A stretch of 34,356 nucleotides of DNA, from the NCBI GenBank assembly GCA_026397965.1, contig JAPLTU010000079.1, positions 6,509 through 40,864 of the forward strand. The letters run 5' to 3'. Source of the DNA: Verrucomicrobiota bacterium (GTDB taxonomy: Bacteria; Verrucomicrobiota; Verrucomicrobiia; Opitutales; UBA953). Under the pieces are notes generated by a model. That model saw only the letters and a list, made by a program, of their open reading frames with translations, was not told where the DNA came from and ran no database searches. Below, piece by piece: positions 5,970 to 30,796 of the stretch. Numbering within the stretch: position 1 is the stretch's first letter; each line of letters starts with the position of its first letter. The position numbers and the translations under genes were made by a program.

Positions 5970-8009
5970 ATGTCATCCGGCAGGCTCAATTTCAAACTCG
6001 AGGCAGTAGCCACGGGCTCCCGGGCGCGGGCAGGAACGTTCCGGACGCTTCATAATGAAGTTAAGACGCCGCTGTTCATGCCGGTAGGAACGCAGGCGAC
6101 GGTCAAAGCCCAGACATTCGACACCCTACTCGATTCGGGTTCGCAGATTCTGCTGGCGAACACCTATCACCTATTGCTCCGTCCGGGACCGGAAGTGTTC
6201 AAGAGCTTTGGCGGCATTCATAAGTTCACGGGTTGGGAAAAATCCTTCCTGACGGATTCGGGCGGCTTCCAGATTTTCTCTTTGCCCCATGCGCGGAATA
6301 TGAAGGAAGAAGGCGCGGAGTTCCGGAGCTACGTTGACGGCAAGGTCCATCTCCTCAGTCCGGAAACGAGCATCGGCACCCAGATCGCGATCGGCAGCGA
6401 TATCATGATGGTGCTCGACCAATGCATCCCCTCGACGGCGGACAAGGCCACGGCTCAAGCCGCGTTGGAGATCACTTACCGATGGGCCAAGCGAAGTCTG
6501 GCGGCCCGGGGCGAATCACCGCAATCCATGTTCGGCATCGTCCAAGGTGCGCTCTTTCCCGACCTGCGCAAACAAAGCGCGGACGGCCTCACCCAATTGC
6601 CTTTTGACGGCTTTGCGATCGGCGGACTTGCCGTCGGCGAAGAAAAACAGCAACGCGAAGACATGTGCGAAATCGCCGCGGCCATGCTCCCGGAAGATCG
6701 GCCGCGTTACCTCATGGGCGTGGGAACGCCGTTGGATCTGCTCGAAGCCGTCCACCGCGGCGTGGACATGTTCGACTGCATCATCCCGAACAAAGTCGCC
6801 CAATTCGGCACTGCCTTCACCTCTCGCGGCCTTCTGCAACTTCGTCGCTCGGTTTATAAGTTCTCGGAAGAAAAATTGGATGCTACGTGCAAATGCCCCG
6901 TATGCGCGAAGTATTCGCGTGGTTATCTACACCACCTGACCAAGACCCAAGAGCCCTTGGGTTGGACACTCCTGGGGCAGCACAACATCGCCTTCTATCA
7001 CCAGATGATGCGGGAAATCCGGCAGAGCATCCTCGAAGATTCGTTCCTGGCGTATTACCATGACCGTCGGCAAGTCTTGCAAATCGAGGACATGGATAAT
7101 CCGGCCAAACCACCGAAAGCTGGTAAAGAGCGGCGGTCGCGGAGCTTGGGCGATTATGAAATCCACCTGCATTCCCAAGGCTTCGCGAACATCCGGCAGA
7201 TTTCTTCGGGCGAGATCATGCATCTGCGTCGCCCGCCGATGGAAGAAGCCAAAGCGCTTTACATCGACCAATCGGCCTTGACGGCGAGGTTGCAGTTGAA
7301 GCCCGGCGAAAAACCCGAAGACCTTGAGCCCCTCGTCATCTGGGATCTCGGCTTGGGCGCCGGGGCGAACGCCATGGCCGCCATCCAATGCTATGAGACC
7401 GAAGCGGCGAAAGGGCCCGTGCGCGGATTAAAAGTCATCAGCTTCGAAAACGACCTCGACTCCATCCGCCTCGCCTTGACGCATAAGAATCGTTTCGAGT
7501 ATCTGCGCCATTCCGGGCCGGACGCTGTGTTGGCGCGTGGCCAGTGGGAATCGCGTCAATTCCCGGGATTGAGCTGGGAGCTGCACGTCGGAGATTTCTG
7601 GGAGAAAGCGGCGCAGGCTTCTGCGAAGCCAGATATCATTTATTACGATTTCTTTTCGCAAAAAACCAACGGAGATTGCTGGGCCTTGGAGTCATTCCAG
7701 AAACTCTTCGCCCATTGCGATCCCAAGAAATCTGCGCAGCTCTTCACGTATTGCTCTTCCACCACCGCCCGCGTCGCGATGTTGAATGCTGGATTTTATG
7801 TGGCGGTCGGCGAAGGTACTGGTTCAAAAAAGCACACCATCATCGCGCTGAGTCCGGGCTTCCCGGAACCCTGCCCCTACCCGCTTATCGAGAAAGATTG
7901 GTTAGATCGCTGGAGCCGTTCGACGAAGAAATTTCCCGATGGATTGAGCGAGGCGGAGCGGGCGGAAATTGAAAAACGAATCATCGGACATCCGCAGTTT
8001 GGGAGATAG
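5970..8009 (+). CDS. tgt: tRNA-guanine transglycosylase fused to MnmC-like methyltransferase
   Basis: A 679-residue fusion. Residues 1 to about 375 are a bacterial Tgt, which swaps guanine 34 for preQ1 in GUN anticodons: FLTDSGGFQ (general base Asp96), LDQC (150-152), GGLAVGE (218-224), nucleophile Asp269 in DMFDC, and a zinc site C307/C309/C312 with His338 (CKCPVC ... GQHN). Cys152 and Val222 match the preQ1-type pocket rather than the queuine type. Residues 395-640 resemble the SAM-dependent domain of MnmC/DUF752: GEIMHLRRPPMEEAKALY, glycine loop WDLGLGAGAN (458-467), acidic FEND (492-495), DIIYYDFFSQ (555-564) and a closing GTGSKKHTIIA. MnmC methylates nm5U34. The usual PTRNAR-type motif after the nucleophile reads PNKVAQ. 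The ATG at 5970 follows a pyrimidine-rich leader. The frame runs unbroken through both domains. Confidence 0.88.
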   Translation: MSSGRLNFKLEAVATGSRARAGTFRTLHNEVKTPLFMPVGTQATVKAQTFDTLLDSGSQILLANTYHLLLRPGPEVFKSFGGIHKFTGWEKSFLTDSGGFQIFSLPHARNMKEEGAEFRSYVDGKVHLLSPETSIGTQIAIGSDIMMVLDQCIPSTADKATAQAALEITYRWAKRSLAARGESPQSMFGIVQGALFPDLRKQSADGLTQLPFDGFAIGGLAVGEEKQQREDMCEIAAAMLPEDRPRYLMGVGTPLDLLEAVHRGVDMFDCIIPNKVAQFGTAFTSRGLLQLRRSVYKFSEEKLDATCKCPVCAKYSRGYLHHLTKTQEPLGWTLLGQHNIAFYHQMMREIRQSILEDSFLAYYHDRRQVLQIEDMDNPAKPPKAGKERRSRSLGDYEIHLHSQGFANIRQISSGEIMHLRRPPMEEAKALYIDQSALTARLQLKPGEKPEDLEPLVIWDLGLGAGANAMAAIQCYETEAAKGPVRGLKVISFENDLDSIRLALTHKNRFEYLRHSGPDAVLARGQWESRQFPGLSWELHVGDFWEKAAQASAKPDIIYYDFFSQKTNGDCWALESFQKLFAHCDPKKSAQLFTYCSSTTARVAMLNAGFYVAVGEGTGSKKHTIIALSPGFPEPCPYPLIEKDWLDRWSRSTKKFPDGLSEAERAEIEKRIIGHPQFGR

Positions 8010-13007: not shown

Positions 13008-16000
13008 ATGAATTTTCTGCAACTTGCGCTCCGCCGACCCGTCACCGTGGTCGTCGCCACCTTGGCGCTCATCTTAAGCGCCATTTTCGGCCTCCAGCGC
13101 ATGCCGAAGGACGTCTTCCCGCCCCTGAACGTCCCCACGATTTACGTCGCGCAACCCTATGGGGGTATGGATGCCGGCCAGATGGAAGGCTTCCTAACTT
13201 ATTATTACGAATATCACTTCCTTTATATCACGGGCATCGAGCACGTAGAGTCCAAGAACATCCAAGGCGCGGCGATCATGAAGCTCCAGTTCCACCCGGG
13301 GACGGACATGTCGCAGGCCATGAGCGAGACCATCGGCTACGTCAACCGGGCCCGCGCCATGATGCCGCCTGGCACCGTGCCGCCGTTCGTGATGCGTTTT
13401 GATGCGGGCAGCGTCCCCATCGGGCAGCTCGTCTTCGCCAGCGAGACGCGCAGCGTCGCCCAACTCCAAGATGCCGCGCTGAATACCGTCCGGCCGCTCT
13501 TCGCCACCTTGCCGGGTGTTTCGGCGCCACCGCCGTTCGGGGGCAGCGCCCGCTCGATTCTTATCAATCTTAACCCCGATCGTTTGCGCAGCACCGGCGT
13601 CACCCCCGAGGAAGTCGTCACGGCCTTGGCCGGAGCCAACACCATCACCCCGGCGGGCAACGTTACCTTCGGCGACATCAACCTCCTCGTACCGGTCAAT
13701 TCGACGATCAAGAACATCAAGGAACTGGAGAACGTCGCCATCCGCCCCGGACAGAATCCGGCGATCCTGATTCGCGATGTTGCGCAGATCATTGATGGCG
13801 CCGACCAAGTCACCAGCTACGCCCTCGTCGATGGCAAACGCACGGTCTACATCCCCGTCACCAAGCGTTCCGACGCCTCCACCCTTTCCGTCGTTGGCTT
13901 GGTCAAAGAAAACCTGGGCGTGTTTCAGGCGGCGGTACCGGCGGACATCAAAGTCTCTTATGAGATGGACCAGAGCCCCATCGTCAGTCGGGCGATTGGC
14001 GATCTTTTCCTCGAATCCGTACTCGGCGCGATCTTCACCGGCTTAATGGTGTACGTCTTCTTACGCGACCGACGCAGCACCCTGATTGTCGTCGTCAATA
14101 TTCCGCTGGCTTTACTGATCGCCGTTTTGGGACTGTGGTTATGCGGACAGACCATCAACCTCATGACCTTGGGCGGCCTGGCGCTCGCCGTCGGCATCCT
14201 CGTGGACGAAGCGACCGTGGCCATCGAAGCGATCGAACAAGAACGCGAACGCGGCCTGGCGGTGGCCACCGCGGTGCGTAACGCCATCCGGGCGACCGCC
14301 TTGCCGCGCTTCTTGGCCATGGCATGCGTCATCGCTGTCTTCCTCCCTTCGCTTTTCATGGAAGGCGCGGCCCGAGCGTTATTCCTTCCACTTTCGTTGG
14401 CGGTCGGCTTCAGCATGATTGCGTCATACGTCCTTTCATCGACCTTGCTCCCGGTGCTAGCGATTTGGTTCTTAGCGCCCCATACGGCTGAACGCGGTGG
14501 ATTTTTCCAAGCCCTGCAAGAGCGTTATATCGGTTGGCTGCAGGCCGTCTTAGCTCGTCGAAAAATCTTTGCGCTTGGCACGTTGGCTCTCGCCACGGCA
14601 GCCATCGCCCTGCTCTACCCTAACCTCGGACGGGAAATATTCCCCTCGGCTAACAACGGTCAGCTCCAAGTGCGCCTACGTGCGCCGGCGGGCACGAAAC
14701 TCGACCGCACCGAACAAATCGCCTTACAAGCCCTCGGCATCATCAAAACTGAACTCGGGGCGGAAAACGTCGGCACGACCCTCGGACTCGTGGGCGTGCA
14801 TGCGCCTAATTATCCGGTGAACCTGATCCATGCCTGGAACAGCGGAACGGATGAAGCCACCTTGCAGATACAATTGAAACCTGGCGCCAAAGTGAACCTC
14901 GAAGCCGCCAAAGAAAACCTACGCCGCAAGCTGGCCGGCGCGATGACTGATGTCCGCCTTTCGTTTGAGCCAGCGGATATCGTCAGCCGCGTCATGAGCT
15001 TTGGTGCACCCACCCCGATCGAAATCGCCGTGAGCGGACCGACCTTGGCGGACAACCGTTCGCACGCAGAGGCGATCCGCAAAGAACTTGAGAAAATAAC
15101 CGAACTGCGAGATATCCAATTTTCGCAGACGCTTGATGCGCCCTCGTTGGAGGTAAGCATCAACCGCGAAAAAGCCGGCCTGCTCGGCATCAAGCTCAAC
15201 GATGCCGCCCGTTCCGTCGTCAGCGCGACAAGCTCGAGCCGCTTCATCCTTTCGAATTATTGGGCCGACCCTAAGACTGGCGTCGCCTTCCAGGTCCAGG
15301 TGCAGATCCCAACCGCACAGACCAAGAGCGTCGAAGACCTGGCGAACTTGCCCGTCGGACCAGCGGGACAGCGGCCGGTTTTGCTGCGTTCGATCGCCAC
15401 GCTCAAAGAAAGCACCGCCGTGGCGCAATATGATCGATATAACATGCAACGCCTGATCACCCTGACGGCGAATTACGCGGGGATCGACCTCGGACATCTC
15501 GCCGAGCGCATCGATGCCGCCATCGCCGCCGCGGGCAAGCCGCCGGCGAAAGTCAAAATCGACCAACGCGGCCAAGTCACCCCCTTGCGGGAACTTCTCG
15601 CGAGCCTGGCACGCGGCCTCGGCATCGCCCTTGTGATCATCGCCTTATTATTGGCGGCGAACTTTCAAAGCCTGCGATTGGCGGGGATCATCTTGGCCAC
15701 CCTCCCCGTCGTGTTACTGGGCGTCATCGCCGGATTAATCGTCACCTTTTCGACCTTGAATATCGAAAGTTATATCGGCGCCATCATGGCCGTCGGGGTC
15801 GCGATCGCGAATGCCATCTTACTGATCACCGCGGCGGAACGACTGCGACGTGACGGAGCGACGGCGGAAGCGGCGGCGCTCGGTGCCGGCAAATCGCGCT
15901 TGCGAGCCATCTTGATGACAAGCTTCGCCATGTTGGCGGGCATGATCCCGATGGCTTGCGGCTGGTCGGAAGCCGGAAGCCAGACCGCACCCTTGGCACG

Positions 16001-16160
16001 AGCCGTCATGGGTGGACTCATTTTCGGCACCCTTGCCACCCTTACCCTGATTCCAGCGCTGTATGCCTGGAGCATGAACGCCGCGAACAGCCGCACCATT
16101 TCCATCGACCCTGAAGACCCTCAAAGTACCCATTACGACAAAACCAATGCTCTCTCCTAA
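13008..16160 (+). CDS. RND-family multidrug efflux pump, inner-membrane subunit
   Basis: A 1,050-residue AcrB/HAE-like transporter, the usual length of the family. It has a start helix (RPVTVVVATLALILSAIFGLQ), a first periplasmic porter region, helices 2-6 with LGGLALAVGILVDEATVAIEA, a second periplasmic region after about residue 545, and helices 8-12 with MAVGVAIANAILLITAAE. Such pumps expel lipophilic or amphiphilic compounds using the proton gradient. The Asp-Asp pair of AcrB helix 4 reads Asp400-Glu401, and the helix-10 Lys position is Ala934, so the proton relay departs from AcrB. It is the first gene of a three-gene operon and overlaps the adaptor gene by 14 bases, which implies translational coupling. 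Confidence 0.9.
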   Translation: MNFLQLALRRPVTVVVATLALILSAIFGLQRMPKDVFPPLNVPTIYVAQPYGGMDAGQMEGFLTYYYEYHFLYITGIEHVESKNIQGAAIMKLQFHPGTDMSQAMSETIGYVNRARAMMPPGTVPPFVMRFDAGSVPIGQLVFASETRSVAQLQDAALNTVRPLFATLPGVSAPPPFGGSARSILINLNPDRLRSTGVTPEEVVTALAGANTITPAGNVTFGDINLLVPVNSTIKNIKELENVAIRPGQNPAILIRDVAQIIDGADQVTSYALVDGKRTVYIPVTKRSDASTLSVVGLVKENLGVFQAAVPADIKVSYEMDQSPIVSRAIGDLFLESVLGAIFTGLMVYVFLRDRRSTLIVVVNIPLALLIAVLGLWLCGQTINLMTLGGLALAVGILVDEATVAIEAIEQERERGLAVATAVRNAIRATALPRFLAMACVIAVFLPSLFMEGAARALFLPLSLAVGFSMIASYVLSSTLLPVLAIWFLAPHTAERGGFFQALQERYIGWLQAVLARRKIFALGTLALATAAIALLYPNLGREIFPSANNGQLQVRLRAPAGTKLDRTEQIALQALGIIKTELGAENVGTTLGLVGVHAPNYPVNLIHAWNSGTDEATLQIQLKPGAKVNLEAAKENLRRKLAGAMTDVRLSFEPADIVSRVMSFGAPTPIEIAVSGPTLADNRSHAEAIRKELEKITELRDIQFSQTLDAPSLEVSINREKAGLLGIKLNDAARSVVSATSSSRFILSNYWADPKTGVAFQVQVQIPTAQTKSVEDLANLPVGPAGQRPVLLRSIATLKESTAVAQYDRYNMQRLITLTANYAGIDLGHLAERIDAAIAAAGKPPAKVKIDQRGQVTPLRELLASLARGLGIALVIIALLLAANFQSLRLAGIILATLPVVLLGVIAGLIVTFSTLNIESYIGAIMAVGVAIANAILLITAAERLRRDGATAEAAALGAGKSRLRAILMTSFAMLAGMIPMACGWSEAGSQTAPLARAVMGGLIFGTLATLTLIPALYAWSMNAANSRTISIDPEDPQSTHYDKTNALS

Positions 16161-17166
16161 AGCCATCGCACTCTTCCTGGGTGCCATTTCAGCGCATGCG
16201 GCCGACTTCACCGTCACGCATCTGAAGAACGGTGACATCACCCGCAGCGTGCAACTGCTGGGCGAAGTCCGACCGAACCAACAAGTCGCGCTCTACGCCA
16301 AAGTCGGAGGCTACGTGCGCGCCATCAACGTCGACTTAGGCGATGTCGTCAAAGCCGGCGACATCCTCGCCGAAATCGAAGTACCCGAGATCGTCGCCGA
16401 CGAAGCGCGCACACGGGCGGAGCTTAAGCTCGCGGAGTCCGAAGAAAAGCGCACTCAACAAGCCTTCAAACAAGCGCCCGACCTGGTCATGCGCCAGACC
16501 GTAGACGCCGCGGAGGCTCGCCTGGCTGTGGCCAAAGCTGCGCAAGAACGGAACGCCACCTTGTTGGCATTTGCCAAGATCAAAGCACCCTTTGCGGGCA
16601 CCATCAGCCGCCGTTCGGTGGACAAAGGAGCCTTTGTGCCAGCGGCGACCGGTGGCGGAGCCGGGCAAGCAGCGTTATTCATCCTGACCGATGCGGCGAC
16701 GGTTCGTATTCAGGCTGCCTTGCCGGAATTTGAAGCGGGCCTTGTTGCAATCGGGCAATCGATTGTCGTCAGCACCGAGTCAACCGGGAGCAAGACCTTT
16801 GAAGCCAAAGTCGTCCGCATTGCGGGAGTGTTGGATGCTTCGAGCAAAACCATGCAAATCGAAGCCGACGTCGCGAACCCAAGCGGCAGCCTGAAACCGG
16901 GCATGTTCGCCAGCGTCAAACTCGGTATCGACACGCATAAAGCTACCCCCCTGCTACCGCTCACGGCGATCATCATGGAAAAAGCGGTGGCGACGGCGTA
17001 CGTGAACGATAACGGCAAGGCCCGTCGTCGCGTCCTGAAAGCTGGCTTCAATGATGGTACAAATCTCGAAGTGCTCGATGGCCTCAAGCCCACGGACGAC
17101 GTCCTCGTCGTCGGCAGCGCCACCTTGACCGACGGACAGCTGGTGACTCTCGCGCCTACAAAATAA
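16147..17166 (+). CDS. RND efflux periplasmic adaptor (HlyD/AcrA family)
   Basis: A 339-residue membrane-fusion protein linking the pump to the TolC channel. A signal peptide covers about residues 1-18 (KAIALFLGAISAHAA). The two barrel-sandwich (lipoyl) halves lie at about 45-80 (VALYAKVGGYVRAINVDLGDVVKAG) and 145-170 (AKIKAPFAGTISRRSVDKG), joined by a short helical hairpin at about 82-140. The beta-barrel follows (ATVRIQAALPE), and the membrane-proximal domain ends with VLVVGSATLTDGQLV. No lipobox is seen, so it is probably soluble in the periplasm. The start lies inside the end of the pump gene, and the stop overlaps the TolC-like start by one base. Confidence 0.9.
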   Translation: MLSPKAIALFLGAISAHAADFTVTHLKNGDITRSVQLLGEVRPNQQVALYAKVGGYVRAINVDLGDVVKAGDILAEIEVPEIVADEARTRAELKLAESEEKRTQQAFKQAPDLVMRQTVDAAEARLAVAKAAQERNATLLAFAKIKAPFAGTISRRSVDKGAFVPAATGGGAGQAALFILTDAATVRIQAALPEFEAGLVAIGQSIVVSTESTGSKTFEAKVVRIAGVLDASSKTMQIEADVANPSGSLKPGMFASVKLGIDTHKATPLLPLTAIIMEKAVATAYVNDNGKARRRVLKAGFNDGTNLEVLDGLKPTDDVLVVGSATLTDGQLVTLAPTK

Positions 17167-18461
17167 TGCGTCACAGCCCATTCCTATTCATCGTCCTGGT
17201 TGCGACGATTTTGCCGTTAAGCAGCCGTGGTGAAAACATCGACCTGCCGACCGTGTTAAAACTGGCGGGAGCGCAGAACATCGAAGTCCAGATTGCGGAA
17301 GCCAAACTCAAAGAAGCTCAAGCCTTGGATAACGGCAGCGTCTGGCAGCTCTTTCCCACCCTATCGCCGGGAGTCAGCTACCGTAACCACAGCGGGAGGG
17401 CCCAAGCTTTTGATGGCAGCGTTTCCGATGTCGAAAAGCAATCCGTAGCCGCAGGCGGAACTGTTCAACTCCAACTTGAACTTGGAGAAGCCATTTACCG
17501 TCGGCTTGTCGCAAAGCAGGTCGCCGTGGCGGCGGGGCATCAGTTGGAGGCGCAGCGCCAGCAGACCCTCTTGCAAGCGGCCCAAGCGTACTTCGACCTC
17601 AGCCGGGCCCATCAATCGATCGCGTTGCTCGAAGCTTCAGCCAAAACTGCGCGCGATTTCCATGCGCAGATCCTGAACGGCGTCAAAGCCGGCCTGGCCT
17701 TCAAGGGCGACGAATATCGCGCCTTCGCGCAGCTCAACCGGGCGGAAGTCAAACTACAACAAGCACGTGATACCGCGCAGGCGGCCGCTACGAACCTGGC
17801 GCAGATCCTTCGACTGAAGATCACCGACGCGCTCACCCCGGCCGACCTCCAGCCATTACCGTTGGCATTTGATGAAAAGAAAGAGGCGCTGGATGCGCTT
17901 GTCCAACGCTCGATTCAGAAGCGCCCCGAGATTGCGGAAAACGAAGCCTTAGTCGAAGCAGCTGAGGCACAATTAAAAGGCGTCACCTATGGTCCGCTTT
18001 TTCCGACGCTTGGCGCGCAATATTATGCGGGCGGCCTTGGCGGCAGCACCAGTTCGAGCCGGAGTGATTATGCCAGCAGCTCGGATACCGTCGTCACCCT
18101 TTCATGGAAAATCGGCGCCGGCGGACTCTTTGATTCATCGCGTAAAAATGCCGCCGAAGCCTTACATAACCAAGTCGAACTCAAAGCGAGCCGGACGCGG
18201 GAGAGCATCACGCGACAAGTCGTGGACGCCTACGCGAACGTCGGCTACCTCAGCTCGCAGCTCGAACTCCTGAAGCAAGGCGTCCAGGCCAGCGAAGCCG
18301 GACTCAAGCTGGCCTTGGCCCGAAAAGAATTCGCGGTCGGCGTCGTCCTTGAAGCGTTGCAATCCCAGCAAGATCTCATCCAAGCCCAATTGGATTACCT
18401 GCAAGCCATCGCCGAACTGAACAAAGCGCAATATCGTTTAAAAGTCGCGGTCGGAGAGTGA
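17166..18461 (+). CDS. TolC-family outer-membrane efflux channel
   Basis: A 431-residue outer-membrane factor. A signal peptide covers about residues 1-22 (FLFIVLVATILPLSSRG). There are two homologous halves of long coiled-coil helices, each with a beta-strand pair: LFPTLSPGVSYRN near residue 60 and GPLFPTLGAQYYAGG near residue 278. The helices have the Ala/Gln/Leu-rich heptads typical of TolC, for example ALQSQQDLIQAQLDYLQAIAELNKAQ near the end. It completes the tripartite pump. The ATG overlaps the adaptor's TAA by one base. The stop codon coincides with the first bases of repeat cluster R6 (GTGAACTCGCG), so the repeat DNA supplies the stop. Confidence 0.9.
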   Translation: MRHSPFLFIVLVATILPLSSRGENIDLPTVLKLAGAQNIEVQIAEAKLKEAQALDNGSVWQLFPTLSPGVSYRNHSGRAQAFDGSVSDVEKQSVAAGGTVQLQLELGEAIYRRLVAKQVAVAAGHQLEAQRQQTLLQAAQAYFDLSRAHQSIALLEASAKTARDFHAQILNGVKAGLAFKGDEYRAFAQLNRAEVKLQQARDTAQAAATNLAQILRLKITDALTPADLQPLPLAFDEKKEALDALVQRSIQKRPEIAENEALVEAAEAQLKGVTYGPLFPTLGAQYYAGGLGGSTSSSRSDYASSSDTVVTLSWKIGAGGLFDSSRKNAAEALHNQVELKASRTRESITRQVVDAYANVGYLSSQLELLKQGVQASEAGLKLALARKEFAVGVVLEALQSQQDLIQAQLDYLQAIAELNKAQYRLKVAVGE

Positions 18462-19947: not shown

Positions 19948-20021
19948 GAGTGCCCAATCCTCAATCGATGGTTGAAACCGCAAAGGCTTTATGGGGTTAT
20001 AGATCGGACACCCTGCACTTT

Positions 20022-21788
20022 ATGACATCGATTACACGCCTCACCACCGCCTTCTTGGCTTGCTTGGCCGCCCTGGCCCAAGCCCAAGAAAAAAAGATGA
20101 ACGTCCTGTTCATCGCCGTCGATGACCTGCGCCCCGAACTCAGCTGTTACGGCAACCCCGTCATCAAGACGCCGAACTTCGACCGCCTCGCCAAACGCGG
20201 TATGGTGTTCAACCGCGCTTATTGCCAACAAGCCGTGTGCGCCCCCTCGCGCTCTTCGATCATGACTGGCAAACGGCCCGACGCCACGCGCGTCTGGGAT
20301 CTCGAGACGCACTTCCGCGTCGCACTGCCGAACGTCAAGACCGTCGGCCAATACTTCAAAGAGCACGGATACTTTTCCCAAGGCATGGGTAAGATTTACC
20401 ACGGAGGTTTTGACGACGAAGCGACCTGGTCGACCCCTTGGATGACTCCTAAAGCCGAGACCTACGCCAAGGCCCCGACCAAGGCCGACGTCGTGAAGGA
20501 AGACCCCAAGAACAAGGGCAAGGGCGTGGCCTTCGAAGCCGGGGATGTTGCCGATGATTTTTATACTGACGGCAAGACCGTGCGTCTGGCGGCTGAAACT
20601 CTCGGACAACTCAAAAAGAAGAACCAACCCTTCTTCTTGGCGGTCGGCATTTCCAAGCCCCACCTGCCTTTCGTTTCCCCTAAGAAGTATTGGGATCGCT
20701 ACGACCCCAAGACAATTCCGGACAACGCCAGCCCCTTCCCCGTCGGTGCTCCCGCCTACGTCGGAGACAGCGATAGCGGCGAGTTCCGGGCTTACACCAA
20801 CGTGCCGGGCAAAGATAAGAACCTCGCGTTCACGCCGCTGCCTCCGGAATTCGCAGCGCAAGTACGCCACGGCTATTACGCCGCCGTCAGCTATACCGAC
20901 GCCAACCTTGGCATCCTGCTGGATGCGCTGGACAAAGAAGGCCTCACGGACAGCACCGTCATCGTCCTCTGGGGCGACCACGGCTGGAAACTCGGCGATC
21001 ACCAAGAGTGGGGCAAGCACACCAACTTTGAAGTCGATACGCGAGTGCCTCTCATCTTCAGCACGCCAAGCATGAAGACCGCCGGACAGAAGAGCAACTC
21101 GCTGGTCGAATTCGTGGACGTCTACCCGACGCTTGCCGACCTTTGTGGTCTGCCTAAGCCCGACACCGATGGAGTCAGCCTCAAGCCCATCATGGAAAAT
21201 CCGTCCGTCACCGTAAAGCAAGTGGCCATCAGCCAATACCCGAAGAGCGCCGGCGTGTCCGACAAAAAAGGCGCCAAGGGAACTGCCAAACGTGACGTCA
21301 TGGGTTACAGCATCCGCGATGACCGCTGGCGCCTGACCCTCTGGCGCAGCCTGGCGGACAACAAGATTGTGGACACCGAACTCTACGACGAAGTCAATGC
21401 GCCGACCGAACCCGAGAATCTTGCCAAGAAACCGGAGAACCAAGAAGTCATCGCCCGCCTCTCCAATTTCCTCCCGCCACCCATTCCCGTCGCCGATCCG
21501 AACGCCAAGAAGATCGCCAAGGGTAAAAAGAACATCATCGATATCGCCGCGAAGAACAAAGACGAGGACGCCACCGCCCCTAGCATCACCGCTCCTAAGA
21601 CTGAAGAAACCAAGGAGCGCGGCCCGATGTTCGATCGACGCGACGTGAATAAGGACGGCAAGCTCTCTAGGGAAGAATTCATGGACAAACAGAAAGACCC
21701 GGTCCACGCCGCCGAGAACTTCATCAAGTTCGACAAAGACAAAGACGGCTCCCTCACCAAGGAAGAGTTTGTCAAGTCGGGCAAATAA
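20022..21788 (+). CDS. Secreted Cys-type sulfatase with C-terminal EF-hand pair
   Basis: A 588-residue sulfatase of the iduronate-2-sulfatase-like group. A signal peptide covers about residues 1-22 (LTTAFLACLAALAQAQ). The metal site begins at VLFIAVDDLRPEL (28-40). The formylglycine motif is Cys73-Ala-Pro-Ser-Arg77, requiring an FGE maturase. TVIVLWGDHGWKLGDH gives the C-terminal metal ligands. The catalytic domain ends near residue 480. A Lys/Ala/Asp-rich linker follows, then two canonical EF-hand loops, DVNKDGKLSREE (541-552) and DKDKDGSLTKEE (571-582). The family removes O-sulfate from glycans. The start at 20022 gives the signal peptide, and the upstream in-frame start at 19950 would bury it. 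It ends at a terminator and is followed by a GH79-like gene, which fits sulfated uronan breakdown. Confidence 0.88.
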   Translation: MTSITRLTTAFLACLAALAQAQEKKMNVLFIAVDDLRPELSCYGNPVIKTPNFDRLAKRGMVFNRAYCQQAVCAPSRSSIMTGKRPDATRVWDLETHFRVALPNVKTVGQYFKEHGYFSQGMGKIYHGGFDDEATWSTPWMTPKAETYAKAPTKADVVKEDPKNKGKGVAFEAGDVADDFYTDGKTVRLAAETLGQLKKKNQPFFLAVGISKPHLPFVSPKKYWDRYDPKTIPDNASPFPVGAPAYVGDSDSGEFRAYTNVPGKDKNLAFTPLPPEFAAQVRHGYYAAVSYTDANLGILLDALDKEGLTDSTVIVLWGDHGWKLGDHQEWGKHTNFEVDTRVPLIFSTPSMKTAGQKSNSLVEFVDVYPTLADLCGLPKPDTDGVSLKPIMENPSVTVKQVAISQYPKSAGVSDKKGAKGTAKRDVMGYSIRDDRWRLTLWRSLADNKIVDTELYDEVNAPTEPENLAKKPENQEVIARLSNFLPPPIPVADPNAKKIAKGKKNIIDIAAKNKDEDATAPSITAPKTEETKERGPMFDRRDVNKDGKLSREEFMDKQKDPVHAAENFIKFDKDKDGSLTKEEFVKSGK

Positions 21789-21811
21789 AATCGACGTCAC
21801 CCTTCCTCACG

Positions 21812-21840
21812 AAAGGCGGTCCGCAAGGTCCGCCTTTTTT
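21812..21840 (+). terminator. Rho-independent terminator
   Basis: AAAGGCGG (21812-21819) pairs with CCGCCTTT (21830-21837), with a two-pair inner extension and a run of T to 21840. It starts 24 bases after the sulfatase stop and separates it from the GH79-like gene, which therefore probably has its own promoter within 21841-21877 or relies on read-through. Confidence 0.85.
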
Positions 21841-21877
21841 ATATCTCCCGCTCCTTCGCCTCAGTTTCAATTGAATC

Positions 21878-23284
21878 ATGTCCATCTTCTTCCGATGCAT
21901 CGCCTTCTGCTGCGGCCTCACCCTGACCGCTGCGGAAAGCGTGCCGGCCACCGTCGTCGTCGACGCCACCAAGCCCGGCCTGACGATTCCCAAAGATTTC
22001 CTGGGTATCAGTTATGAAAAAAACGCCTTAGTTGAGCCGCACTTCCGGGCAGCGAACTCAGAGCTCATCCACCTCCATCGCAACCTCGGACCAGGCACCT
22101 TACGTTTGGGTGGCAATAAAGTCGAACTCACGCGCTGGCAGGCAGAAATCAAACCAGCTACCTTGGATAAAAAGACCGGACTCGCCGTCATTGGGCGCGC
22201 CACGCTCGACGACCTCTACGACTTCCTCAAGGCGACGGACTGGAAATGCGTGCATGGCATCAACCTGGCGGGCAACCAGCCGGAGACTTCCGCGGACGAG
22301 GCTGCTTATGCGCTCAAGATCGGCGCGGCGTCCGTACTGGCCTTTGAAGTCGGCAACGAACCCAACCTCTACAACAACCACGACCTGCGCAAAAAAGATT
22401 ACGATTGCGGCCAGTATCTACCGGAGGCCGCGAAGGCCATCAAAGTCATCCGCGCCCGTAATCCCGGCATCATCTTAGCCGGACCCGCGACGGCACGACG
22501 TACTGATCGTTGGTTCGAAGACGCCGTGGCTGGCCTTAAAGGCCAGCTCGAGATTGGTACCTCGCACCTTTACGCCCTTTCCGGAGGATCGACCAACCCC
22601 AAGTCGGCGAATTTTCCGAGTATCGAAAACCTCCTGCTCCCGGCCACCATGGCCAAAGATGTCACGATGGTGGACGAGCACCTTGCCGCCGCGAAGGCCG
22701 CCGGCATGCGTTACCGTCTGGCCGAATGTAATTCGATTTCCAACGGCGGACGTGCGGGCATCAGCGACGCATTTGTCGGCGCGCTTTGGGCGACCGACTT
22801 TCTCTTCAGCGTCGCGGAACACGGCGCCGATGGGATTAATTTCCACAGCAACCTCAAAGAAGGCAGCTACTCGCCTTTCTTCGCGCGTAAAAGCGGCGGC
22901 TATCAGGTCCAGCCCCTTTATTATGCAATGCTGCTATTCAGAGAAGCTGGGCGCGGACGCATCTTAACCGCCACCGTAAAGAGCGAAGCTAATATGACCG
23001 CGCACGCTACGATCGGCACGGACGGTAAACTGCGCATGGTACTCACGAATAAAGATCTTGCCCGCGAGATTGTTGCACACGTTTCAACAGGACGCACCCA
23101 GGGCACCATCGCCCGCCTCTTGGCACCGAGTATCGACGCTAAGACCGTCGTCACCTTTGCCGGAGCGGCCACGGCGAACGATGGAAAATGGTCGGCTATA
23201 AAGACCGAGCCCGTTGCCGGAAATGGGAGCGACCTCACCGTACGATTACCGGCGGGCAGCGCGGCCGTGGTGACGTTGGAGTGA
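21878..23284 (+). CDS. GH79-like glycoside hydrolase (beta-glucuronidase/heparanase-like)
   Basis: A 468-residue secreted (beta/alpha)8-barrel enzyme. A signal peptide covers about residues 1-19 (FFRCIAFCCGLTLTAAE). DFLGISYEKNAL opens the barrel, as in GH79. GTLRLGGN follows. The acid/base is Glu161 in FEVGNEPN, and the probable nucleophile is Glu283 in RLAECNS, a spacing close to that of characterised GH79 beta-glucuronidases. GINFHSNLKEGSYSPF is followed by a C-terminal beta-sandwich (from about residue 365) that ends AVVTLE. GH79 cuts glucuronic acid or methylglucuronic acid from proteoglycans and plant glycans. Next to a sulfatase this suggests a sulfated, glucuronate-containing substrate. 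GH39- or GH30-like enzymes are alternatives. Confidence 0.75.
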   Translation: MSIFFRCIAFCCGLTLTAAESVPATVVVDATKPGLTIPKDFLGISYEKNALVEPHFRAANSELIHLHRNLGPGTLRLGGNKVELTRWQAEIKPATLDKKTGLAVIGRATLDDLYDFLKATDWKCVHGINLAGNQPETSADEAAYALKIGAASVLAFEVGNEPNLYNNHDLRKKDYDCGQYLPEAAKAIKVIRARNPGIILAGPATARRTDRWFEDAVAGLKGQLEIGTSHLYALSGGSTNPKSANFPSIENLLLPATMAKDVTMVDEHLAAAKAAGMRYRLAECNSISNGGRAGISDAFVGALWATDFLFSVAEHGADGINFHSNLKEGSYSPFFARKSGGYQVQPLYYAMLLFREAGRGRILTATVKSEANMTAHATIGTDGKLRMVLTNKDLAREIVAHVSTGRTQGTIARLLAPSIDAKTVVTFAGAATANDGKWSAIKTEPVAGNGSDLTVRLPAGSAAVVTLE

Positions 23285-23537
23285 GGGGAAGACCAGAGAG
23301 AGGCAGTGCAAAGGTGCAACTCGGAGCGCAGCTCCTGTGCAAAGGTGAGCGCGGCGAAGCCGCGAGGGGGCATGCGGGCAAGGTGACAAGTGGGCAAGGG
23401 AGACACACTAGAGGCTCGGAGGCTCAGAGGACCAGAGAGAGGCAGTGCAAAGGTGCAAATGCGGCGAAGCCGCGTGCAAAGGTGCAAAAGTGGGATAACA
23501 ACACTTCGGGTGGCGGGTGGCGGGGAAGCTTTCGGAA

Positions 23538-23593
23538 GGTAGGGCTGATCACCCTTGATCAGCCGCGATTGAGCGAGGGCGCTCAACCCTACC
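23538..23593 (+). repeat. GTAG-foot bipartite palindrome with swapped stems
   Basis: The ends GGTAGGG (23538-23544) and CCCTACC (23587-23593) are the same as at 5735-5800, but both inner hairpins are unrelated in sequence: GGCTGATCA / TGATCAGCC with loop CCCT (23543-23564), and TTGAGCG / CGCTCAA with loop AGGG (23569-23586). Structure and ends are kept while both stems are replaced, which is evidence that shape rather than sequence is selected or copied. Confidence 0.75.
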
Positions 23594-23605
23594 CAAGGCA
23601 GAGAT

Positions 23606-23720
23606 ACGTTTCGGGTCTCAGGTCTCGGCAGTCGGGTATCGGGTACGGGTTATCAGGTTCGGGTACGGGTTCGGGGCCTGAACCTGACCCTGGTGCTGAA
23701 CACCTGAACCTGGGACCTGA
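23606..23720. repeat. Degenerate low-complexity inverted repeat
   Basis: A G/T-rich arm built of CGGGT, CAGGT and TCGGG words (23610-23678) meets a C/A-rich arm built of CCTGAACCTG, GGACCTGA and GAGACCC words (23678-23745). The two are imperfectly complementary about a centre near 23678 (GGGGCCTG). It looks like an expanded, decayed member of the palindrome family. Confidence 0.55.
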
Positions 23721-23864
23721 AGGCCGAGACCCGGGACCTGAGAGTGTATTGACTAACCGCCAACCGCTAACCGCAAGCCGCCACCACCGTTTCAGGCTCC
23801 ATTTCCCGCCATTTGAACAAGTGCCATTGACGGGTGTCCAAAGGCCATAGATTACAACTCCATC

Positions 23865-26800
23865 ATGAGAAACCCCCTCTCTGCGCTGCTGGCTTTCCTG
23901 CTGGTCGCCCTCGCCCCTCTTTCCGCCCAGGACGGCTTCAAGCCGATCTTCGACGGCAAGACCCTCGCCGGCTGGGATGGCAACCCTGAGCTGTGGTCCG
24001 TCGAGGACGGCTGCCTCACTGGCAAGACCAAGGGGCCTGACCATCTCACCTACAATCAGTTCCTCGTCTGGCGCGGCGGCGTTCTGAAGAATTTCGAGCT
24101 GCATGCCAAGATCAAGTGTTCTGCTAGCAACTCCGGCATCCAGTATCGCAGCAAAGATCTGCCCGAGAACGGCAAGTGGTCCATCGGCGGCTACCAGTGC
24201 GACGTCCATCCCTCCCCGGCCAACAACGCCATGGTCTACGAAGAACGTGGTCGCGGCATCTTGGTGCAGAACGGACAGAGCGTCATCATCGACGACAAGG
24301 GCGGCAAGTGGCTCGCCGCGGAACACGAACAGGTCAAAGTCGATATAGCCGAATGGCATGAGTACACCGTCATCGCGAACGGCAACCATCTCACACATAA
24401 GGTAGACGGCAAAGTGACCATCGACCTGATCGATCATGATGAGAAAGCTCGTTCGCTCGAAGGCATCCTTGCTTTCCAAGTTCACCGCGGCCCCGCCATG
24501 ATCGTCCAGATCAAGGACGTGATGCTCAAAGAACTCCCTGAAGGCGGTTTGCTTTCCATGGAGAAGAATCCCATCCCCAGCGATGCGCAGAAAGTAGAAA
24601 AGCCCGGCGCCAAAGGAAAGAAAGCTCCAGCCAAGAAGGCCGCGCCGGTCATCAAACCTGCCACCAAAGCCTTTCTGCAAATCGCGGCCGAACCCGCTCC
24701 TAAGCAAGCCCCCAAAGGCAAAGCTAAAGCCAAAGCCAAGGCCGCCCAGCCGACCAACCCCGACAACGGAAAGGCCATTGGCGAAAACAAAGCCACGCCC
24801 GTTGACCGCATCCGCGCTCCCGAAGGCTTCAAGGTCGAGCTCCTTTACTCCGTCCCCGGAGATAGCCTCGGCTCTTGGGTCGCCCTCTGCGCCGACGGCA
24901 TAGGCCGCATCTACGCCAGTGACCAATATGGCTCCCTCTATCGATTCAATACTCCCGCACCGGGTGAAACCCTGAAGGTCGAGGACGTGCAGAAAGTACC
25001 CGTGGAGATCCGGGCAATCAACGGCATGGCCTGGTTCAAAGGCACCCTCTATTGCGGCGTCAACGACTACGAGCACAAGTCCACCTGCGGACTTTATCGC
25101 ATCAGCGACACTAACGGCGACGACCAATTGGATAAGGTAGAGCTACTCCGCGAAATCGATTCGAGCGGCGATCACGGCGTCCATGCAATCGTGCCTGCGC
25201 CTGATGGTGAATCGCTCTTCCTGATCTCCGGCAACGGTGCCAAGATGACCTCGATCGCCGAGAACTCCGTCGTCCCGAAAGTCTGGGGCGAAGATCATGT
25301 ACTTCCGCGCATGCCTGACGGCCGCGGGTTCATGCGCACCGTCATGGGCCCAGGCGGTTGCATCTACCGCGTCTCCCCGGACGGTAAAGATTTCAACCTC
25401 TACGCGACTGGCTTCCGTAACATTTATGACGGCGCTTTCAACCGTGACGGCGAGTTGTTCACCTACGACGCCGACATGGAGTATGACTTCAATACGCCTT
25501 GGTACCGCCCCACCCGCGTGAATCACGTCGTCAGCGGTGCCGAATTCGGCTGGCGCAACGGTGCCGGCAAACGCCCTGAATTTTACGCCGACAACCTGCC
25601 GGCCGCGGTCAACATCGGCCCCGGCTCGCCCACCGGCGTGACCTTTGGTTACGGTGCCAAATTCCCGGCCAAGTTCCAGGAATCGCTTTTCATCCTCGAT
25701 TGGAGTTGGGGAAAAATCTACGCGATTGACCTCAAGGCCAAAGGCTCGAGCTACGCCGGTACCAAGACTGACTTCATCAGCGGCGGCCCCCTTCCCGTCA
25801 CCGACGTCCTCATCCATCCGAAAGATGGCGCGATGTATTTCGCGATCGGCGGGCGGAAGGTCCAATCCGGCCTCTACCGCGTAACTTATGTCGGTAAGGA
25901 AAGCACCGCACCAGTAGTCGCCGAGGCCAAGGCCTCACCCGAACGCGACCTACGCCATCAGCTCGAAGCCTTCCACGGCCATAAAGACCCGAAGGCCGTG
26001 GCCTTTGCTTGGCCGCACCTCAGCAGCCCTGACCGTTTCATCCGCTGGGCCGCCCGTATCGCCATCACCCACCAGCCCGTCTCTGAGTGGAAAGACAAGG
26101 CCTTGATGGAAACCAATCCCGACGCCCGCAACGAGGCGCTCCTCGCCCTCGCCCAAGTCGGCGGCATTTGCCCTTTCCATCGCGTGGGTGAAACCGTCGT
26201 CGACGCCAAACTTGGCGCAGAACTTCTCGAAGGCATCCTCAAGGCCGATTGGAAAAGCCTGAGTAACGACCAGCGCCTCGCGCTTGTCCGCGTCACTGAG
26301 ATTGTCCTCAACCGCTACGGCAAGCCCGCCGACGCGACCGTGCAGGCGCTCATCGCCAAATTCGATCCCGCCTTCCCCGCTGATAACTTCGAGCTTAATT
26401 GGGAACTCTGCGAGACGCTCGTCGCGCTGCAGGCTCCTTCCGCTGCCGCCAAGGGCATCGCGTTGCTCAACAATGCCGAGAGCCAGGAGCCGCAAATGGA
26501 ATACGCCCGTAGCCTGCGCAACCTGAATACCGGCTGGACGCCCGAGTTGCGCAAGCAGCAACTCGAATGGTTCCTCAAAGCTGCCAACTACCGTGGCGGC
26601 TCCAGCTTCGCCAAGTTCAACGAATTCATCCGCAACGACTCGCTCGCGACTTTCACCGACGCCGAGAAGACGTCGCTCGCCGAGCTCATCAGCCGCAAAC
26701 CTGAGCCAAAGTCAGCGATTGAGAACGTCGGTGCCATGTTCGCGGGCCGGACGCCAAAGAACTGGACGCTCGAGGAACTCAGCGCCGCCGCCAGCAACGG

Positions 26801-27257
26801 CATGAAGAACCGCGACTACGCTCAAGGCCGCAAGGTCTTCAGCGCCGCCGCCTGCTTCACCTGCCACCGCTTCGGTAATGCCGGAGGCATGACCGGTCCT
26901 GACCTCACCCAGGCCGGAGGTCGTTACAGCCCGCACGACTTCCTCGACCAAATCATCAACCCGAGCAAGGTGCTCAATGAGCAATTCATCCCAATCGTCG
27001 TCACCAAGAACAACGGCGAAGTCGTCACCGGCGTCGTCGTCAATCTCAACGGCGACCGCGTCAGCATCAACACCGACGCCTCCGACCCCATCCAGCAGGT
27101 CGCCATCGACCGCAAGGAAGTGAAGAGCATCGAGCCGAGCAAAATTTCGCCGATGCCTCCGATGCTCCTCAGCATGCTGACCCAGGAAGAGATTCTGGAT
27201 CTCGTGGCCTACGTCCTGAGCGGTGGCGATAAAGCCAACGCGATGTTTAAGAAGTAA
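23865..27257 (+). CDS. Secreted DUF1080 / beta-propeller / HEAT / cytochrome c fusion
   Basis: A 1,130-residue multidomain protein. A signal peptide covers about residues 1-23 (LLAFLLVALAPLSAQ). Residues 25-230 are a DUF1080 (3-keto-disaccharide hydrolase-like) domain: FKPIFDGKTLAGWDGN, CSASNSGIQYRSKD, GGYQCDVHPS. A Lys/Ala/Pro-rich linker spans about 240-305. Residues 310-680 are a six-bladed glucose/sorbosone-dehydrogenase-like propeller (APEGFKVELLYSVP, DVLIHPKDGAMYFAIGG). HEAT-like helices run to about 960. The C-terminus is the PVC-type heme domain with CFTCH (997-1001), LDQIINPSKVLNEQF and a late Met-rich PMPPMLLSML. It may bind and oxidise sugar products in the periplasm and pass electrons on. 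It ends at a strong terminator. Confidence 0.85.
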   Translation: MRNPLSALLAFLLVALAPLSAQDGFKPIFDGKTLAGWDGNPELWSVEDGCLTGKTKGPDHLTYNQFLVWRGGVLKNFELHAKIKCSASNSGIQYRSKDLPENGKWSIGGYQCDVHPSPANNAMVYEERGRGILVQNGQSVIIDDKGGKWLAAEHEQVKVDIAEWHEYTVIANGNHLTHKVDGKVTIDLIDHDEKARSLEGILAFQVHRGPAMIVQIKDVMLKELPEGGLLSMEKNPIPSDAQKVEKPGAKGKKAPAKKAAPVIKPATKAFLQIAAEPAPKQAPKGKAKAKAKAAQPTNPDNGKAIGENKATPVDRIRAPEGFKVELLYSVPGDSLGSWVALCADGIGRIYASDQYGSLYRFNTPAPGETLKVEDVQKVPVEIRAINGMAWFKGTLYCGVNDYEHKSTCGLYRISDTNGDDQLDKVELLREIDSSGDHGVHAIVPAPDGESLFLISGNGAKMTSIAENSVVPKVWGEDHVLPRMPDGRGFMRTVMGPGGCIYRVSPDGKDFNLYATGFRNIYDGAFNRDGELFTYDADMEYDFNTPWYRPTRVNHVVSGAEFGWRNGAGKRPEFYADNLPAAVNIGPGSPTGVTFGYGAKFPAKFQESLFILDWSWGKIYAIDLKAKGSSYAGTKTDFISGGPLPVTDVLIHPKDGAMYFAIGGRKVQSGLYRVTYVGKESTAPVVAEAKASPERDLRHQLEAFHGHKDPKAVAFAWPHLSSPDRFIRWAARIAITHQPVSEWKDKALMETNPDARNEALLALAQVGGICPFHRVGETVVDAKLGAELLEGILKADWKSLSNDQRLALVRVTEIVLNRYGKPADATVQALIAKFDPAFPADNFELNWELCETLVALQAPSAAAKGIALLNNAESQEPQMEYARSLRNLNTGWTPELRKQQLEWFLKAANYRGGSSFAKFNEFIRNDSLATFTDAEKTSLAELISRKPEPKSAIENVGAMFAGRTPKNWTLEELSAAASNGMKNRDYAQGRKVFSAAACFTCHRFGNAGGMTGPDLTQAGGRYSPHDFLDQIINPSKVLNEQFIPIVVTKNNGEVVTGVVVNLNGDRVSINTDASDPIQQVAIDRKEVKSIEPSKISPMPPMLLSMLTQEEILDLVAYVLSGGDKANAMFKK

Positions 27258-27284
27258 GGGACGCAGGGACAAAAACTTAACCTG

Positions 27285-27317
27285 AAGGGGTCTGGCCAAG
27301 CGCCAGACCCCTTTTTT
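27285..27317 (+). terminator. Rho-independent terminator
   Basis: A 12-pair stem (AAGGGGTCTGGC with GCCAGACCCCTT) around a five-base loop, followed by a T run to 27317. It starts 28 bases after the stop of the DUF1080 fusion and should end that transcript. Confidence 0.9.
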
Positions 27318-27379
27318 GTGCATTTAAAGGGCGAAGCCCCATTTACTGATTTACACATCTGAAAGGGGGGCCGAAAGAT

Positions 27380-29815: not shown

Positions 29816-29874
29816 CAGGCGGCAAGGCGAGGGGTTGCAGTCGGCTGGTGAGGTGTTTAAAAAATCCTACCCCC

Positions 29875-30795
29875 ATGAACAAACTGACTGCCCTTCTGTT
29901 AGCATGCCTTTTCGTCACCGCCGTCGGTCAAGAAAAGCCCAAAGCTAACCGACCCCCACCCAAGAAAGCATCGGGCGGAAAAACCGGCGGCTACCCTCCG
30001 GTCATCGAAGGCACTCAGGTCGAGACCTATCGTAAAATCGGGGACAGCGAGATGAAAGTCTGGATCTTTAATCCCACCGAAAAAGCGACCAGCCCACGCG
30101 CCGCGATCGTCTTTTTCTTCGGCGGCGGCTGGACCGGCGGTTCTCCGGTGCAATTTGAAGCGCAGAGCCGGGAACTTGCGGCGCGCGGGATGGTCGCGCT
30201 CGTCGCTGATTACCGTGTCGCCTCGCGCCAACAGGCCAAGCCGGCCGACTGCGTATCGGATGCCAAAGCCTGCGTCCGCTGGATACGGACTAATGCCGTG
30301 CGCCTAGGCATCGACCCCGACCGCATCGCCGCCGCTGGAGGCTCGGCAGGTGGCCACCTCGCCGCTGCGACCGGAACCTTACCCGGACTCGAAGGCAGCG
30401 ATCAGGACCTCAAGATTTCCTCGGTGCCGAACGCCCTGATACTTTTCAACCCTGGCACCGTCATGGCACCTTTTCCCGACCTCGACCTCAAAGGTTTCGG
30501 CGCCGGACTTGATAAGGCCAAATTCGGTTGTGAGCCCGAAGCGATTTCTCCTTTGCACCACGTCAAGAAAGGCACACCCCCGACCATCATCTTCCACGGC
30601 AAAGCCGATACCACCGTCCCCTACACCACCGTGGAGAAATTCGCCGAAATCATGAAGAAGAACGGCAACCGCTGTGAACTCGTCGGCTATGAAGGCGAAA
30701 AACACGGCTTCTTTAACACGAGTAAAAAGCAGGAAACCCTCGAAGCCGCCGACGCCTTCCTCGTTTCCCTCGGCTACCTTCCGGCCAAGAAATAA
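29875..30795 (+). CDS. Secreted acetyl-esterase-like alpha/beta hydrolase
   Basis: A 306-residue hydrolase of the BD-FAE/acetyl-xylan-esterase-like group. A signal peptide covers about residues 1-18 (LTALLLACLFVTAVGQ). The oxyanion motif appears as FFFGGGWTGGSP, the nucleophile Ser lies in GGSAGGHLAA, the Asp in HGKADTTVPY, and the His in GEKHGFFN. Such enzymes remove acetyl or feruloyl groups so that glycosidases can act. It lies 59 bases after the GH2 gene and 1 base before the sulfatase, which indicates an operon. The start at 29875 (ATG) gives the signal peptide. The frame opens at a GTG at 29848, which is unlikely to be used. Confidence 0.85.
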   Translation: MNKLTALLLACLFVTAVGQEKPKANRPPPKKASGGKTGGYPPVIEGTQVETYRKIGDSEMKVWIFNPTEKATSPRAAIVFFFGGGWTGGSPVQFEAQSRELAARGMVALVADYRVASRQQAKPADCVSDAKACVRWIRTNAVRLGIDPDRIAAAGGSAGGHLAAATGTLPGLEGSDQDLKISSVPNALILFNPGTVMAPFPDLDLKGFGAGLDKAKFGCEPEAISPLHHVKKGTPPTIIFHGKADTTVPYTTVEKFAEIMKKNGNRCELVGYEGEKHGFFNTSKKQETLEAADAFLVSLGYLPAKK

Positions 30796-30796
30796 T

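Follow-up and report, generated by a model that had tools for sequence, protein, structure and literature searches.

The window (the whole stretch of DNA that we analysed, 34,356 nucleotides) carries a gene for a 679-residue protein in which a Tgt, here Tgt2, and an MnmC2-like methyltransferase are read in one open frame (Table 1). Elsewhere in the window, positions 13008-18461 hold an RND efflux set in a row (AcrB-type pump, adaptor and TolC-type outer membrane protein), and positions 19950-32590 hold polysaccharide breakdown genes: sulfatases, glycoside hydrolase family 2 and 3-keto-disaccharide hydrolase with cytochrome c.

Table 1. Features of the Tgt2-MnmC2-like fusion gene, in window positions; residues are those of the fusion protein unless stated otherwise.
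Feature	Positions	Strand	Remarks
Whole fusion gene Tgt2-MnmC2-like, 679 aa	5970..8009	+	Single open frame
Tgt domain, residues 18-367	6021..7070	+	PF01702, E 2.8e-139; structural match to Z. mobilis TGT
Catalytic Asp96 (= Z. mobilis Asp102)	6255..6257	+	Kept 88/88
D-Q-C, residues 150-152 (canonical D-E-C)	6417..6425	+	Glu157 (Z. mobilis numbering) replaced by Gln/His, 88/88
Nucleophile loop DCIIPNKVAQFG, residues 269-280	6774..6809	+	Nucleophile Asp269 kept
Zinc ligands Cys307, Cys309, Cys312	6888..6905	+	Kept 88/88
Fourth zinc ligand His338	6981-6983	+	Zinc ligands kept 88/88
Linker, residues 376-390	7095..7139	+	Low model confidence, pLDDT <50 at 380-387
MnmC2-like methyltransferase domain, residues ~391-630	7140..7859	+	Profile matches and predicted fold
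SAM loop GLGAGAN, residues 461-467	7350..7370	+	Sequence comparison with MnmC2
Glu493 (= E. coli MnmC Glu101, SAM ribose)	7446..7448	+	15/15 fusions
D-x-F-S-x-K-T motif, residues 560-566	7647..7667	+	Asp560 is the Asp178 equivalent
C-terminal extension ending HPQF	7860..8006	+	Conserved in full-length fusions

The Tgt-methyltransferase fusion was confirmed as genuine. Single-frame fusions recur in more than 80 genomes, and an assembly or frameshift artefact was rejected on that ground. In Pfam, PF05430 (Methyltransf_30, DUF752) matches residues 535-627 (E 4.6e-11) with a score of 43.1 against a gathering score of 22. In NCBIfam, the Tgt equivalog TIGR00430 scores the protein at 436.7 bits, above its cut-off of 306.75, and the MnmC2 model NF033855 matches residues 415-626 (E 2.2e-19) but, at 70.2 bits, misses its curated cut-off of 136. 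The FAD-oxidase (MnmC1) domain is absent from the protein, in which Pfam found TGT and Methyltransf_30 alone; the fusion thus lacks the oxidase that a bifunctional MnmC carries in the same protein. A preliminary description of this DNA had recognised this architecture: the missing oxidase, an N-terminal Tgt complete in its catalytic and zinc residues (Asp96, Asp269, Cys307/309/312 and His338, with the Pfam match of Table 1), and a C-terminal half with a SAM loop and MnmC/DUF752 signatures, which the PF05430 match, GLGAGAN, Glu493, Asp560 and the predicted MnmC2 fold bear out.

That reading had the domains right but overlooked a second, ordinary Tgt in the genome. The source genome (2.18 Mb in 89 contigs) also encodes a standalone Tgt of 383 aa, 43% identical to the fusion's Tgt, and a standalone copy accompanies the fusion in 19/19 fusion genomes to which the Tgt model was applied; we therefore rejected the possibility that the fusion is the genome's sole Tgt. 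Most of 8 further fusion genomes, reached via named contigs, have a standalone Tgt too; in one of the 8, a draft close to the source genome, the fusion was seen and a standalone Tgt was not. Both proteins occur in two Acidobacteriota (Holophagales and Thermoanaerobaculia) and in Chthoniobacter flavus Ellin428. All 88 distinct fusion Tgts (88/88) form one clade in the tree, with a support of 0.99 and a long stem. When the class was scanned with the Tgt half, matches of the fusion type had 64-100% identity and always lay in a frame of 575-779 aa, and canonical Tgts, in other frames, had 48% identity or less; the gap between 48% and 64% was empty. The fusion Tgt is a divergent paralogue, not the ordinary Tgt of the genome. 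The phylogenetic spread, whose survey had been proposed in the preliminary description, takes in the more than 80 genomes: the fusion occurs widely in Verrucomicrobiota and extends to Acidobacteriota. Plasmids and phages, searched for the fusion, gave no match. The gene neighbourhoods of the fusions contain no conserved set supporting a pathway, and the only frequent neighbour is a member of the GFO/IDH oxidoreductase family, on either strand.

Some individual genomes stand out. The standalone Tgts of the source genome (L002/L103) and of the same genus (L102) have lost two of three zinc cysteines, with MDN/LDN-YTC where CxCxxC is expected. In G364, two Tgt-methyltransferase fusions occur together with a standalone Tgt; this genome also has an MnmC1 that exceeds its cut-off and, in a frame of its own, a PF05430 domain.

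In a fold search, the Tgt half of the model matched Z. mobilis TGT with a Z of ~51 over 366 residues, and its sequence is ~45% identical to this G34 Tgt; in the whole-model search the matches were filled by Tgt. The full-length model has a pTM of 0.57, and the relative orientation of the domains was left unused. Comparison of the 88 distinct fusion Tgts with 34 canonical Tgts (Z. mobilis numbering) revealed that (i) the catalytic Asp102 and Asp280, the CxCxxC...H zinc site, the preQ1 pocket (Asp156, Cys158, Gln203, Gly230, Leu231, Val233, Glu235) and the dimer-interface Tyr330 are kept in 88/88 fusion Tgts; (ii) three residues found in 34/34 canonical Tgts are replaced, namely Glu157 (0/88; Gln or His instead), Arg286 (0/88; Gln, Lys or Ala) and Arg289 (1/88; Gln or Lys in the other 87); and (iii) position 161, Tyr or Trp in bacterial Tgt, is Ser in 88/88. 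The fusion Tgts have neither of the conserved G34 Tgt signatures, D-E-C and PTRxxRxG, and in the protein of the window Lys275 and Gln278 take the places of Arg286 and Arg289. Asn occupies position 320 in 10/34 of the canonical Tgts compared. Arg286 and Arg289 presumably help Tgt to read the anticodon. Arg286 has been placed near the ribose-34/phosphate-35 pocket (PMC5395182). Catalysis and the preQ1 pocket look intact from these residues, and the simplest reading is that the fusion Tgt has changed its RNA selection and retained catalysis.

Modelled alone (pLDDT 93), the methyltransferase half found its best PDB match in MnmC2 of A. aeolicus (3vyw; Z 23.4, 239 residues aligned, rmsd 3.1); E. 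coli MnmC (2qy6) gave a Z of 22.1, and spermidine synthases ranked behind MnmC2 (Z 17.6). The predicted fold is that of MnmC2. In MnmC, Glu101 contacts the SAM ribose and Asp178 is the proposed base (PMC3648344), and the equivalents of both are invariant in 15/15 fusions. In the 15 fusions compared, DxFSxKT stands in place of the classical DxFxPxxN, with the Pro182 and Asn185 equivalents changed; the Phe67 equivalent is Leu, and the Arg235-type basic tail motif is altered (Arg235 to Pro, Asp or other). The fusion thus has neither the DxFxPxxN motif nor the basic tail of an MnmC2. This pattern fits a putative active N-methyltransferase with altered substrate recognition. A standalone MnmC2-like protein of 290 aa (L087, G347 C2) is 31% identical to the fusion's methyltransferase half and has a classical PAKN motif as well as the HPQF tail; it is possibly a relative of the source of this half.

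Both halves of the fusion are under purifying selection, with dN/dS of ~0.03-0.10 where dS was measurable; several pairs were saturated. Three genomes of family f11 (L015, L016 and L017, in G199, G187 and G190) encode a 571-aa form in which the Tgt2 half is intact and the methyltransferase half has decayed: the SAM-binding residues and its whole C-terminal part are lost, and no methyltransferase remnant was seen downstream. In these forms nature has retained only the Tgt half, so the halves are separable. The preliminary description had allowed that the C-terminal half might prove an inactive Rossmann domain, which is true only of these three genomes; for most members a dead domain was rejected on the retained Asp178 and Glu101 equivalents and the low dN/dS.

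Which wobble-base pathways do fusion genomes contain? Following checks suggested in the preliminary description, we found MnmE and MnmG in 13/13 sampled fusion genomes and QueA in 18/19 (G000 being the one without a match). QueF was found in 16/19; G290, G347 and G353 have no match, so preQ1 would need salvage there. The queuosine pathway is mostly available in fusion genomes. Among the fusion genomes examined, MnmC1 exceeded its cut-off in G364 only and MnmL in none. MnmM, the other known nm5U methylase, is present in the source genome's own genus and in f11 and was not found over cut-off in families f3 and f13; members of f3 that have no fusion likewise lack it. Thus, with MnmE and MnmG present, MnmC1 and MnmL mostly missing, MnmM patchy and QueA and QueF mostly present, the fusion does not track the enzymes that make nm5U. 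At five sites, the gene immediately ahead of MnmM (PF06962) encodes an MnmC1-related FAD oxidase that scores below cut-off; the two are a candidate pair of separate oxidase and methylase (G039 C22:48335-49926; G128 C1:48130-49736; G001 C7:91241-92798; G108 C4:3865-5297; G066 C6:201415-203124).

What could the two halves do together? The primary amine of nm5U34 is the group that MnmC2 methylates, and preQ1, the base inserted by bacterial Tgt, bears on C7 the same aminomethyl group as nm5U. The preliminary argument against a need for both activities on the same tRNA does not hold, because preQ1 carries a primary aminomethyl such as MnmC2 methylates on nm5U. A target within the queuosine pathway, also raised there, is the reading we favour: Tgt2 would place preQ1 at the wobble base G34, and the aminomethyl arm of preQ1 would be N-methylated by the MnmC2-like half, a proposal that we hold at somewhat less than even confidence. 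The protein would be a bifunctional wobble-base enzyme taking two successive steps. The Tgt half would swap guanine, most likely G34, for preQ1, as its intact catalytic, preQ1-pocket and zinc residues suggest; because the ordinary Arg286/Arg289 signature is lost, the tRNA set or sequence context on which it acts probably differs from that of the ordinary Tgt. With SAM, the MnmC2-like half would then N-methylate the primary aminomethyl of preQ1 to give 7-(methylaminomethyl)-7-deazaguanosine, paralleling the MnmC2 conversion of nm5U34 to mnm5U34; this step is proposed from the fold, the conserved SAM and base residues and the chemistry. Methylation could also make preQ1 unavailable to QueA; the methylated base would then be an end product, existing alongside the Q that the standalone Tgt, QueA and QueG make. 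MnmC2 is elsewhere fused to the maker of its substrate: in E. coli to MnmC1, which makes nm5U, and in many genomes of this phylum to MnmL, which presumably serves the same step as MnmC1. By analogy, Tgt would supply preQ1-34 to the methyltransferase half, and this third fusion partner suggests preQ1-34 as the substrate. The scarcity of MnmC1 and MnmL over cut-off, MnmM in the own genus, the low dN/dS of both halves and the frequent QueF and QueA speak for this reading; the genomes with no QueF or QueA match, the separable halves and the gene neighbourhoods count against it.

Alternatively, Tgt2 may target another RNA site or molecule (a non-GUN anticodon, another tRNA position or another RNA), with the methyltransferase acting on the product or a nearby nucleotide. 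The loss of Glu157, Arg286 and Arg289 beside intact catalytic residues is as expected from such a change, for which the archaeal ArcTGT (G15) and DpdA, acting on DNA, set a precedent (PMC6884629); we think it unlikely, given the identity to the Z. mobilis G34 enzyme, the score above the Tgt equivalog cut-off and the action of MnmC2 relatives at position 34. The methyltransferase half could also be a true MnmC2 converting nm5U34 to mnm5U34 by the MnmEG ammonium route, with the Tgt half serving as an anticodon-loop dock or having an independent activity. MnmEG can form nm5U directly (PMC3648344), MnmE and MnmG are present throughout the sampled genomes, the fold and the SAM and base residues are those of MnmC2, and f3 and f13, with no MnmM over cut-off, have no other known nm5U methylase. 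But MnmM is already there in the own genus and in the three genomes with a decayed methyltransferase half, f3 members do without it even when they have no fusion, MnmC1 and MnmL are mostly absent, and other residues stand in place of the classical PxxN motif and Arg235; it would also be odd for a mere dock to keep the catalytic residues of a transglycosylase so strictly. We regard this alternative as quite unlikely.

Two further schemes seem far less probable. The nitrogen of Q is already secondary, and this counts against methylation of a later queuosine intermediate; methylation of that or of free preQ1, rather than of preQ1-34 in tRNA, is very improbable despite QueA in nearly all fusion genomes, since MnmC2 relatives act on tRNA and the nearest substrate within the fusion is the Tgt product. 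Tgt2 might instead pair with the standalone Tgt as a subunit, in the manner of QTRT2 with QTRT1, and bring the methyltransferase to Q tRNAs. Bacterial Tgt is a dimer (PMC5395182) and Tyr330 at the interface is invariant, but the two catalytic Asp and the full set of zinc ligands are kept in 88/88, unlike in a non-catalytic partner, so that we consider it most improbable.

Taken as a whole, we put forward only tentatively that Verrucomicrobiota and some Acidobacteriota carry, at a wobble position, an undescribed N-methylated preQ1 and that a single two-headed enzyme of changed anticodon specificity makes it. The favoured preQ1-methylation reading predicts a specific new nucleoside. The fusion connects two wobble pathways so far studied apart, that of a purine (queuosine) and that of a pyrimidine (mnm5U), which share position 34 and aminomethyl chemistry. 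It also marks a Tgt lineage with probably changed anticodon selection, a natural handle on Tgt-tRNA recognition. Since the curated Tgt model scores the fusion as an ordinary Tgt, the second activity is easily overlooked.

How does the fusion compare with known systems? Among open PubMed Central papers, neither a fusion of Tgt with MnmC2 nor a tRNA nucleoside corresponding to methylated preQ1 came to light; each domain family is known by itself, and their combination, the paralogue and the predicted product are new as far as we searched. ArcTGT, DpdA and QTRT2 are likewise Tgt copies that took another role, but they are far more diverged than the fusion Tgt, and no MnmC2 domain was found with them within the searches made. 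With bacterial Tgt (PF01702, TIGR00430; Z. mobilis TGT, PDB 1q2r) the fusion shares the fold, the catalytic Asp pair, the preQ1 pocket and the zinc site; it differs in being a second genome copy with a methyltransferase attached, and in the replacement of Glu157, Tyr/Trp161, Arg286 and Arg289 nearly throughout the clade. With MnmC2/DUF752 (PF05430; A. aeolicus 3VYW and the N-terminal domain of E. coli MnmC) it shares the fold (Z 22-23), the SAM loop and the Glu101 and Asp178 equivalents; in contrast, it scores below the NCBIfam cut-off, has PxxN, Phe67 and Arg235 replaced, carries a C-terminal extension and has Tgt, not an FAD oxidase, as its partner. MnmL-MnmC2 fusions (TIGR01212 plus MnmC2) occur in many genomes of the same phylum; we noted single frames of ~577-635 aa in other families (L018-L020, L022-L032), confirmed by HMM for L018, L020 and L027 and assigned by likeness for the rest. 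Like the Tgt fusion, they place an MnmC2-type C-terminus on an aminomethyl-making wobble-34 enzyme; theirs is the radical-SAM MnmL, with the classical MnmC2 motifs kept, whereas here it is Tgt.
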